Positions 41,464 through 44,315 of a stretch of 64,000 bases of DNA are shown piece by piece. Position 1 is the stretch's first letter. Each line of letters starts with the position of its first letter. The notes below the pieces were generated by a model, which was given only the letters and a program-made list of their open reading frames with translations, was not told the DNA's origin and ran no database searches. A program made the translations under genes and the position numbers. The stretch is from assembly GCF_006716355.1 (NCBI RefSeq), contig NZ_VFOW01000001.1, positions 992,001 to 1,056,000 of the forward strand. The letters run 5' to 3'. The stretch is from Stackebrandtia endophytica (lineage in GTDB: Bacteria; Actinomycetota; Actinomycetes; Mycobacteriales; Micromonosporaceae).

Positions 41464-41846
41464 CGCGTTGGCGAGACCGTGAGGTGTTGGCTGATGGCCA
41501 GCGCCGGATCCGCTGTCTCGCAAGGCATCCGGTTACCCCGAACCACAACGGACACGGCGTTTCCACGGCAGGGGCGGGTCGACAACACGAACCTCGGCAA
41601 CGCGACGGACTCTGCCACCGGTGGTGCGGTCGCCGTCGAAACCGGTTCGCCGAAGTGCCCGTCTCCGTCGGAGCCGCCACCAGCCTCGATATCAATGTGG
41701 ACCGGTGGGCTTCGGCGACGGCGACCGCCGGAATCATCGCGGTGGGAATACTCGGATTTCCACGGCACGACCTGGCCTGATGATCGTCGGGTCCCGTCCA
41801 TGGCTGCCGACGGCGCCGGGCGATCTGACCGGGTATGCTCGGCAGC
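41464..41846. other. Intergenic region, no supported gene
   Basis: Long overlapping frames exist on both strands, but none has a ribosome-binding site or a recognisable protein. A plus-strand stretch reading VPVSVGAATSLDINVDRW then GIIAVGILG (ending 41780) looks faintly protein-like and may be a relic. Confidence 0.4.
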
Positions 41847-41884
41847 GGTGTGCCGGGAAGCCTGGTCGGCGTTGTAACGACACC
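41847..41884 (+). promoter_or_regulatory. Candidate structured leader RNA, copy 1 (upstream of hydrolase)
   Basis: The first 25 bases (41847-41871) are identical to 42968-42992 before nhaA. They can fold with GCCG (41852-41855) pairing CGGC (41867-41870) around GGGAAGCCTGGT, closed by an outer GGTGT (41847-41851)/ACACC (41880-41884) stem. It lies 145 bases before the hydrolase ATG, on the sense strand. A riboswitch-like role is inferred. Confidence 0.5.
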
Positions 41885-42015
41885 CCACGCCACGAGGAAG
41901 CCGTGTATCCCCCTCTCCACTCTCCCCGACCCTCCGGGTCGATCGCGCCCGCGCCATCGCGGATTCCCCGAGGCGCGTGTTCCTCCGCCGCATCACGCCG
42001 AGCGGGGACCGGGCC

Positions 42016-42882
42016 ATGACCGCGATCTACCGCAACACGGTCAGCCAGTACACGGTGCGGCAGTGGTGCCTCAACCGGTTGGCTCAATGGTCCACACCAC
42101 ACAGTCGCCAGGTGGTCAAAGTGGATGACGTCGACGTACATCTCACCCACATCGGTGACCAGGCCGCCAAAGTGGTCTTTCTGCCGGGCACCAACTTCAA
42201 TGCCGCCACCAGCCTGAAACTGGGCAGCGCGTTGAGCGAACGCTGGCCCACCATGATCATCGACCTACCCGGACAGCCGGGACTGTCCAGCGGATTCCGG
42301 CCACGCCATCCACACGACGGCTGGTACGGCCGAATCGTGGCGAAGGTTCTGGAAGCCACCGCCGCGCGAGAGGTCGTGGTCGTCGGGCACTCGTTGGGGG
42401 CCGCCGTGGCGCTGGCCTGCGACTCCCCACGCATCGGTGCCCGGGTGCTGTGCTCCCCCGCCGGCATCACCCGGCTGGGCATGGACATCCCGCTGTTGGC
42501 CTGCTCCACCCGATGGTTGCTGACGCCGACGATGGCGGCAAGTCGACGCCTGTTGAACCTGATGATGGCGCCCGGGGGCCGGGCGTCCACCACGGCTGCG
42601 GAGTGGATGAGCCTCGTCGGACATCATTGCCGGACCAGCCTGGCGCCGCCACCTCAGCCGATCGAGGTTCTGGGGCGCGCCGCCGGGAGGACGCTGGTGG
42701 TCGCCACCGGCGAGCATGATCGTTTCCTGGGGCCACGGCGGCTCGCGACACCGGTGCAGCGCGGCCTCGACGTGTCGCTGCGCACCCTGCCGGACGTCGG
42801 TCATCTCGTCGGAGACGAGCGTCCCGGGGAGATCGTGAAACTCATCGAGGGAGTCGTCGCCCGCCGAACGAAACGGCCGTGA
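42016..42882 (+). CDS. Alpha/beta-fold hydrolase
   Basis: A 288-residue hydrolase: oxyanion segment VVFLPGTNFNAATSL, nucleophile elbow VVGHSLGAAVAL, acid region LVVATGEHDRFLG and His in LPDVGHLVGDE. The ATG at 42016 follows a GGGGACCGGG stretch; an upstream in-frame start adds 13 residues. It is preceded by the same leader element as the downstream nhaA, and ends in a hairpin before that gene's own leader. A joint response with nhaA is therefore likely. The substrate is unknown. Confidence 0.83.
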   Translation: MTAIYRNTVSQYTVRQWCLNRLAQWSTPHSRQVVKVDDVDVHLTHIGDQAAKVVFLPGTNFNAATSLKLGSALSERWPTMIIDLPGQPGLSSGFRPRHPHDGWYGRIVAKVLEATAAREVVVVGHSLGAAVALACDSPRIGARVLCSPAGITRLGMDIPLLACSTRWLLTPTMAASRRLLNLMMAPGGRASTTAAEWMSLVGHHCRTSLAPPPQPIEVLGRAAGRTLVVATGEHDRFLGPRRLATPVQRGLDVSLRTLPDVGHLVGDERPGEIVKLIEGVVARRTKRP

Positions 42883-42887
42883 GGTTG

Positions 42888-42905
42888 CGTGGCCGATCGG
42901 CCACG
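42888..42905 (+). terminator. Palindromic hairpin between hydrolase and nhaA
   Basis: CGTGGCCGATCGGCCACG is an 18-bp perfect palindrome (7-bp stem, GATC loop) 6 bases past the hydrolase stop. It separates the hydrolase from the nhaA leader. Confidence 0.5.
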
Positions 42906-42967
42906 TGAAATGAACAACATCTCACAGCATGGATTTCACCACGTTGATCACGATAGGGTCAATGACT

Positions 42968-42997
42968 GGTGTGCCGGGAAGCCTGGTCGGCGAGACA
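42968..42997 (+). promoter_or_regulatory. Candidate structured leader RNA, copy 2 (nhaA leader)
   Basis: Bases 42968-42992 repeat copy 1 exactly. The GCCG (42973-42976)/CGGC (42988-42991) stem is conserved, with a short TGT/ACA outer pairing (42970-42972 with 42995-42997). It is 70 bases before the nhaA GTG. nhaA-I and nhaA-II RNAs are known leader motifs of nhaA genes and have been described as Li+ riboswitches; membership has to be tested by covariance model. Confidence 0.55.
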
Positions 42998-43061
42998 TTT
43001 GTGATGCTCGGATCAGGCGCCCTCGACGGCGTCCACCGAGCGGTGCGACGAGGAGATCGAG

Positions 43062-44315
43062 GTGGAGCCGGTGAAGTCTGGCAACCGTTTGGCCGAAGCC
43101 CTACGCAGTGACACCACAGGTGGACTGCTGTTGATCGGTGCGGCGGCGATCGCACTGTTGTGGGCGAACTCGCCATGGGGCAACGCCTACGAGTCGGTGC
43201 GCCACTTCGTGATCGGCCCCGCATGGCTGCACCTGGATCTGGCGTTGGAGGCGTGGGCGGCCGACGGTCTGCTGGCACTGTTCTTCTTCATCGTCGGGAA
43301 CGAACTCAAGCAGGAGTTCATCAACGGCCAGTTGCGAGACCCGAAGAAGGCGATGGTCCCGATCGTCGCCGCCGTCTGCGGTGTCGTCGTTCCAGCCGTG
43401 ATATTCACCGTCATCAACCTGGGCCAGGGCGGCGAAGCCGCCAACGGCTGGGGAATCCCGATGGCCACCGACGTCGCCTTCGCGATCGCGATCCTCGCCA
43501 TCGTGGGTCGACACCTTCCCCCCGCGTTGCGGATCTTCCTGTTGACGTTGGCCGTGGTCGACGACCTCATCGCGATCCTGGTCATCGCGATCTTTTACAC
43601 CGGCGGCGTCAACTTCCTCGCGCTGGTCGCCGTCCTGCTTCCGTTGGGGCTGTTCGCTTACCTACAGCGTGGCCGAGGGCTGGCCGCCGCGTTGAACCGG
43701 TCGCGCGTTCCCAACTGGGTCGTCTACCTGCCGATCATCGCCGCGATCTGGACCCTGGTGCACGCCAGCGGAGTGCACGCCACCATCGCGGGGGTCGCGA
43801 TGGGTCTGTTGATGCGCACCGGTAAGCAACCCGGCGAGAAGATGGACCCCAGCCACCGAGCCGAGATCGGACTACGGCCGTGGGCGATGGGCTTGGCGCT
43901 GCCGATCTTCGCACTCATGTCGGCAGGCGTCGTCTTCGACGGATTCGGAGCGATTTTCACCGACACGGTCGCGTTGGGCATCGTCATAGGCCTGGTCGTC
44001 GGCAAACTGGTCGGCATCGCCGGCGGCGCCTGGTTGACCACCAAGCTCACCAGCGGCAGGCTCGACGATTCGCTGGCCTGGCCCGACATCATCGGCATGT
44101 CCCAATTGGCGGGCATCGGGTTCACGGTGTCCCTGCTCATCAGTGAACTGTCCTATCCGGATAACGCCTCGATGCTGGACCACGCCAAGAGCGGTGTACT
44201 GATCGGGTCGTTGATCGCCACCATCCTGGCGATGGTGGTCCTCACGATCCGAAACCGGCATTATCAACGCCGGAACGCCCCACCCACCGTCGGCACCGGC
44301 TTCGAGTCGACCTGA
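43062..44315 (+). CDS. nhaA: Na+/H+ antiporter NhaA
   Basis: A 417-residue, 12-helix antiporter exporting Na+ or Li+ in exchange for H+. Family blocks are SDTTGGLLLIGAAAIALLWAN, FFFIVGNELKQEF, PMATDVAFAIAIL, the paired ion-binding aspartates in LAVVDDLIAILVIAIFYT, and GIGFTVSLLISELSY. Length matches bacterial NhaA (about 390-440). The GTG has GAGGAG 6 bases upstream. The leader carries the repeated candidate RNA switch shared with the preceding hydrolase. Confidence 0.95.
   Translation: MEPVKSGNRLAEALRSDTTGGLLLIGAAAIALLWANSPWGNAYESVRHFVIGPAWLHLDLALEAWAADGLLALFFFIVGNELKQEFINGQLRDPKKAMVPIVAAVCGVVVPAVIFTVINLGQGGEAANGWGIPMATDVAFAIAILAIVGRHLPPALRIFLLTLAVVDDLIAILVIAIFYTGGVNFLALVAVLLPLGLFAYLQRGRGLAAALNRSRVPNWVVYLPIIAAIWTLVHASGVHATIAGVAMGLLMRTGKQPGEKMDPSHRAEIGLRPWAMGLALPIFALMSAGVVFDGFGAIFTDTVALGIVIGLVVGKLVGIAGGAWLTTKLTSGRLDDSLAWPDIIGMSQLAGIGFTVSLLISELSYPDNASMLDHAKSGVLIGSLIATILAMVVLTIRNRHYQRRNAPPTVGTGFEST

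Follow-up and report, generated by a model that had tools for sequence, protein, structure and literature searches.

A small conserved hairpin in the leaders of Na+/H+ antiporter genes of Actinomycetota and Chloroflexota as a candidate riboswitch-type RNA

Described cation riboswitches and the motif of the window

The described RNAs that come closest to the motif considered here are the riboswitches for alkali cations. The nhaA-I riboswitch (Li+-I, RF03057), like our motif an nhaA leader RNA, is a 55-position aptamer with two stems, and according to passages of PMC9646797 it has rare variants that work with terminators and show a response to Na+; the nhaA-II riboswitch (Li+-II), in passages of the same paper, also lies 5' of nhaA. 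The Na+-I riboswitch (DUF1646, RF03071) is described in passages of PMC9337991 as controlling Na+ genes at the level of transcription, with Firmicutes, Proteobacteria, Acidobacteria and Verrucomicrobia named as carriers and with the word Actinobacteria not occurring in the main text. Passages of PMC11109978 and PMC8632094 were also included in the riboswitch comparison.

In the window, that is, the whole 64,000-nucleotide stretch of Stackebrandtia endophytica DNA that was analysed, an identical 25-mer, GGTGTGCCGGGAAGCCTGGTCGGCG, is present at 41847-41871 and at 42968-42992, in both cases on the + strand, the strand of the genes that it precedes, as the earlier note had claimed. The 26-nucleotide motif occupies 41847-41872 (copy 1) and 42968-42993 (copy 2), both on the + strand. 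Copy 1 is followed by an alpha/beta hydrolase gene at 41977-42882 (+ strand; PF12697; alternative ATG start at 42017), and copy 2 by the Na+/H+ antiporter gene nhaA at 43062-44315 (+ strand; PF06965, E 1e-125). The -10-like hexamers of predicted promoters, TATGCT at 41834-41839 and TAGGGT at 42954-42959 (both + strand), start 13 bases upstream of copy 1 and 14 bases upstream of copy 2, respectively; with a TAnnnT hexamer at 13-14 bases 5' of each copy, the transcript is thus predicted to start at or next to the motif. A 20-mer pattern with one extra G in it and up to 3 mismatches matches nothing in the window but the two copies (shuffle expectation 0.01), and in the whole genome of 5.66 Mb the exact 21-mer occurs as the two window copies, with no further place at up to 3 mismatches, a tolerance at which the reversed control gives 2 matches.

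Membership of nhaA-I or nhaA-II, the precedents named in the earlier note, did not hold. When 1321 bases were scanned against Rfam by gathering score and with E up to 10, no relevant family was found, the three matches obtained being at chance level, and the nhaA-I, nhaA-II and Na+-I (DUF1646) models, with which the earlier note had proposed to check the motif, did not match it even at E 10. This absence of a cmscan match sets the motif apart from nhaA-II, whose position 5' of nhaA it shares. From Na+-I, whose consensus also begins with GG (GGUUGGGC), it differs in that Na+-I is a two-stem aptamer with another conserved core. To nhaA-I there is a further likeness, because the nhaA-I consensus begins with GGGUGC and the motif with GGUGUGC, so that 5' GG.UG is shared, and because both contain UGGUCGG; this may reflect a real link or chance. 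Based on these starts, on UGGUCGG and on the nhaA genes served by both, one could suppose that the motif is related to nhaA-I, in divergent or stripped-down form, with a common ion-binding core. However, the seven common letters are possibly due to chance, the model is unmatched, and the two stems P1 and P2 with their linker are replaced by one hairpin with one short conserved stem, and we regard such a relation as improbable. Note also that the nhaA-I model, applied to 148 genomes of the window's class, gave no match passing the cut-off and 5 weaker ones (L298-L302), which may be due to chance or to Li+-I riboswitches that have diverged and at which the motif was not found, while the Na+-I model, applied to 151 Chloroflexota genomes, gave none passing the cut-off and 1 weaker match.

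The motif strings, in their C and T variants, are absent from the main texts of the literature searched, and topic searches at the level of titles and abstracts gave no description of the motif. A 2017 survey reportedly comprised 224 candidate RNAs. The explanation that we consider probable is that the motif is a cis-regulatory RNA some 26 nt long, which would sense alkali-cation or pH status and represent a new riboswitch-type class of very small size; the sequence evidence supports a conserved RNA structure, competing helices and a regulon, which are considered in turn below.

Anatomy, covariation and position of the hairpin

The 26-nucleotide element reads GG[U/A]G[U/C]GCCGGGAAGNCUGGUCGGC[G/A]N, and over a set of 171 sites, in which both window copies are counted twice via overlapping loci, the consensus is GG[T/A]G[T/C/A]GCCGGGAAGNCTGGTCGGC[G/A]. 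It consists of the 5' flank GGNG and the hairpin P1, in which positions 6-9 pair with 21-24 around the nearly invariant 11-nt loop GGAAGNCUGGU, whose conservation is partly built in, the loop letters having been fixed in most searches. The GG at positions 1 and 2 was found in 170 and 171 of the 171 sites, respectively, though both positions had been left free, and position 15, at the centre, is variable. In the window P1 is formed by 41852-41855 with 41867-41870 in copy 1 and by 42973-42976 with 42988-42991 in copy 2, with possible wobbles U41851-G41871 and U42972-G42992. This is the GCCG/CGGC stem pointed out in the earlier note, and covariation elsewhere backs it. The extra GGTGT/ACACC stem noted for copy 1 could form as well, with ACACC at 41880-41884 (+ strand), in copy 1 only. 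When the 40 bases downstream were searched for an exact complement of motif bases 1-5, 13 of 209 Actinobacteria sites had one, where 9.5 would be expected, and a closing stem of this type is thus not general there; in Chloroflexota 6 of 48 sites had one, as compared with 1.6 expected, which is consistent with the terminators of that phylum.

Two kinds of variant were also observed. In two sites of one genome (L258, L259) the motif begins with AGTGCGCC and has T at position 16, G1 and C16 having changed to A1 and T16 together, which hints at a contact of the 5'-tail with the loop; a site with A1 and C16 (L114) speaks against such a contact. A loop variant with G for T at position 17 (e.g. AAGTCGGGTC) recurs in L131, L132, L139 and L289, with the 5' GGNG retained.

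Among 86 distinct 26-mers P1 is paired in 99.7% of cells, with double compensatory changes in three of the four pairs and one-sided standard changes in none. The compensatory pairs are A-U at 6-24 (6 rows), U-A at 7-23 (3 rows) and U-A at 8-22 (2 rows), and the covariation score of the set was reached by none of 500 shuffles; pair 6-24 is broken in a single row (L189). Without any filter on that pair, 258 sites gave G-C 250 times, A-U 7 times and A-C once, these and the other site counts being uncorrected for relatedness. It is noted that the five rows altered at 7-23 or 8-22 had been included because they pair, so that the fair test is a search with a free stem. Two such searches, each in 296 genomes with the loop fixed and the stem bases free, gave 31 places, 30 of them distinct: all five variants with a full P1 have the promoter box at the usual distance, as compared with none of the 25 without a full P1 (Fisher p 7e-6), and these five lie upstream of NhaA genes (4) and of a gene for an Mrp/NADH-quinone-type antiporter subunit (1).

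Moreover, columns 5 and 25, which adjoin the base of P1, have the top mutual information of the 38 columns tested (positions -3 to 34; 210 Actinobacteria sites), and in the same table no second conserved stem stands out. The 210 sites comprise UG 147, CA 32, UA 14, AA 6, UU 4, UC 4, CG 2 and AG 1. As the U-G and the protonated C-A wobbles are isosteric, the pattern looks like selection for pair geometry. Scoring 5-25 as a standard pair gave no added support and was rejected, C-A not being standard, and the evidence for 5-25 is thus the association of the columns. If the C-A is a protonated pair, sensing would be coupled to pH. In the 48 Chloroflexota sites no clear preference at 5-25 is seen, which counts against a riboswitch.

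The position of the motif relative to the promoter bears on whether the element acts as RNA or as DNA. In Actinobacteria a TAnnnT box lies at the same short upstream distance in 160 of 200 sites, so that the motif is predicted to start near +1. Such a fixed distance is unusual for a riboswitch and argues against one; it would suit a DNA operator or an initially transcribed promoter element at about +1 to +25, read by a transcription or sigma factor, as would the imperfect palindrome that the sequence forms around position 15. However, the box is there in only 5 of 48 Chloroflexota sites, so that element and promoter are not coupled in this phylum, where a TATNNT-like box is seen 30-75 bases upstream in 19 of 48 sites (a count made without a chance control); the fixed promoter-relative position in all lineages that a DNA operator would need is thus not found. 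In addition, the 5-25 preference, U going with G and C with A while C-G is seen in only 2 of 210 sites, contradicts the symmetry of a palindrome, and the motif is accompanied by complementary terminators and anti-P1 strands. Thus the evidence favours an RNA over a DNA element, the latter being in our estimate very improbable. A conserved, structured leader RNA with covariation, as expected of a riboswitch, is what was found, and cis-regulation by RNA is well supported.

At four sites with the promoter some 35 bases 5' of the motif (L007, L054, L062, L116), differing hairpins ending in TCGAT adjoin the motif on its upstream side by eye, and at two of them (L062, L116) S15-like hydrolase ORFs are seen by eye downstream. 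A general upstream hairpin was rejected, since z values under -1.5 were obtained for 6 of 40 Actinobacteria sites lacking an adjacent box, 17 of 160 having one and 12 of 48 Chloroflexota sites.

Competing helices and the candidate switch

In 24 of the 48 Chloroflexota sites a T-run hairpin is present whose 5' arm overlaps the 5' half of the motif, as compared with a mean of 2.5 and a maximum of 8 over 30 shuffles; five of the rows (L247, L248, L250, L251, L254) are near-identical. In L248, for example, GGAGUGCCGGG pairs with CCCGGCACUCC, and TTTTCTTT follows. The terminator complements track the variation of the motif, AGCACC going with GGTGCTTTTT in the A-U variant L184. An expression platform exclusive with the conserved fold is therefore seen in these 24 sites, while for Actinobacteria there is a predicted competing helix only, the terminator arrangement being found there in 3 of 200 sites, no more than in shuffles (mean 1.3, maximum 3). 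The 24 Chloroflexota sites without a terminator are 12 of the 21 with GC above 0.6 and 12 of the 27 others. That the terminator is missing from half of the Chloroflexota and nearly all Actinobacteria sites speaks against the riboswitch.

For the 3' half of the motif, downstream pairing is predicted at 0.81 in 198 Actinobacteria leaders, as compared with 0.56 in shuffles (p 8e-25), and the predicted probability of P1 is 0.006, as compared with 0.038 in shuffles. Copy 2 of the window provides an example of the downstream helix, GCCTGGTC (42981-42988) being predicted in the minimum-energy fold to pair with the competitor strand GATCAGGC at 43011-43018 (+ strand). When P1 was forced in 106 Actinobacteria leaders, predicted access to the Shine-Dalgarno sequence was not raised (-0.048 as compared with -0.023 in shuffles, p 0.06), and a simple translational ON switch by Shine-Dalgarno release is thus not supported for this phylum.

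With these data, a pathway can be proposed for the candidate riboswitch. In Actinobacteria the mRNA would begin at the element or close to it, and in most Chloroflexota the element would lie deeper in the leader. P1, predicted to be weak alone, would be closed by the GGAAGNCUGGU loop and flanked by the 5' GGNG and, in Actinobacteria, by the U-G or C-A wobble. A second helix would take one strand of P1, namely the terminator in half of the Chloroflexota leaders and the downstream anti-P1 helix in Actinobacteria. Under high Na+ or Li+ or alkaline stress P1 would be stabilised and the competing helix broken, turning on the antiporters and related genes. An ON switch is what the terminator arrangement predicts, since a stabiliser of P1 blocks the terminator, and it fits with an exporter being induced by the ion that it exports. 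That a ligand and not a protein stabilises P1, with the switch being ON, we infer, and the identity of this ligand, an alkali cation or the proton, is suggested by the regulon only. That the motif may sense ions is our leading hypothesis. It is to be noted that P1, with 4 pairs and an 11-nt loop, is very small for an ion aptamer, which argues against the riboswitch; direct binding of an ion, if it occurs, would make the motif an exceptionally compact aptamer.

The same structures could be read by a protein. RNA antiterminators of the BglG/LicT type are read by proteins at a small hairpin that overlaps the 5' half of a terminator. The motif is alike in this overlap, with the difference that its genes are mostly ion transporters. 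The hairpin could accordingly be the target of a BglG/LicT-like antiterminator or translational regulator protein that binds RNA and senses cation or envelope stress, because a hairpin that is small, has an invariant loop and overlaps a terminator suits a protein as well as an aptamer, and because a varied regulon would suit a stress regulator. On the other hand, occurrence in two phyla, often with 1 or 2 copies per genome, suits a self-contained RNA at least equally, and we consider the protein target rather unlikely, though a serious alternative to the riboswitch.

Downstream genes and distribution

Of 248 sites 14 had no ORF call, and of the 190 called Actinobacteria ORFs 137 were scanned and 53 left out. 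The 137 ORFs comprise NhaA 37, Na_H_Exchanger 21, ABC ATPase 12, CBS 10, CitMHS 9, LCM 5, PPDK 4, Na_Ca_ex 3 and TrkH 2, with ArsB 8 and NhaB 8 being models that overlap CitMHS, and the 44 Chloroflexota ORFs comprise Na_H_Exchanger 24, NhaA 6, Na_Ca_ex 4, DUF2254 3 and P450 2, where one protein may match both the NhaA and the Na_H_Exchanger models. Thus the commonest genes 3' of the motif encode NhaA and other cation/proton antiporters. The motif also lies 5' of genes for LCM methyltransferases, PPDK-type enzymes, DUF2254 membrane proteins, P450 and STAS proteins. The regulon includes more than ion transport, as the ABC, CBS, LCM and PPDK matches among the 137 show, and this speaks against the riboswitch reading. 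Overall, the interpretation in the earlier note, a cation-responsive riboswitch, is partly supported: the conserved sense-strand leader RNA, the covarying stem, the cation-antiporter regulon and the mutually exclusive structures stand, while membership in nhaA-I, nhaA-II or Na+-I does not.

The TrkH and CBS domains after the motif could also point to a riboswitch for a ligand other than a cation, e.g. a nucleotide second messenger of osmotic stress, for which the c-di-AMP riboswitches, controlling K+ and osmotic genes elsewhere according to passages of the literature, would be a precedent. However, Na+/H+ antiporters are foremost in both phyla, and a 26-nt core would probably offer little space for a large ligand, so that such a ligand seems to us quite unlikely.

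In the window's family a pattern with two free positions is found in 129 of 150 genomes, and its reversed control in 1 of 150. In the window's phylum 182 of 396 genomes match when up to 3 mismatches are allowed, and in Chloroflexota 117 of 350 when up to 2 are allowed, at least 31 of them exactly, chance matches being included in both of these counts; a covariance model found the motif in 17 of 201 Chloroflexota genomes, with E no higher than 2.2e-5 in 12 of these. The exact 21-mer occurs in at least 119 stretches of genome contigs, and among the 80 matches listed these are mostly from Actinobacteria, with two from Ktedonobacteria (Chloroflexota). A link to phages was rejected, since no phage record matches and the 5 viral-contig matches are without the 5' GGNG.

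The full proposal is that an aptamer about 26 nt long, which would sense an alkali cation or the proton, defines an undescribed class of riboswitch in control of a sodium/proton regulon across Actinomycetota and part of the Chloroflexota; this is possible, at somewhat less than an even chance. If it is true, the aptamer would be among the smallest natural ones. The motif offers a concrete candidate for the sensor of an entire ion-transport regulon, present in most genomes of one actinobacterial family, and it flags the alpha/beta hydrolase, DUF2254 and LCM methyltransferase genes as possible genes of salt or pH physiology.

The inclusion of the alpha/beta hydrolase in the regulon, which the earlier note had suggested, is supported by recurrence of the arrangement. 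A plasmid of Rhodococcus rhodochrous has the order motif, hydrolase, nhaA, its hydrolase being 26% identical to that of the window over 242 columns; a Pseudonocardia plasmid has the motif and then a hydrolase; and a hydrolase-like ORF is seen by eye at the motif of L111. Plasmids gave 35 matching records, 32 from Actinobacteria (some weak) and 3 weak rhizobial ones. Ten of the 35 were examined at their motif loci: a cation:proton antiporter is found in 4, an ArsB/NhaD transporter in 1, a hydrolase followed by nhaA in 1, a hydrolase in 1 and a STAS protein whose annotated start overlaps the motif in 1, the motif locus being unannotated in 2.

Finally, we note that many genomes have 1 or 2 copies of the motif and others up to 12. 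In three genomes (G441, G461, G511) several copies are spaced by about 1.4 kb or by a few kb, as though every gene in a cluster were preceded by a copy of its own.
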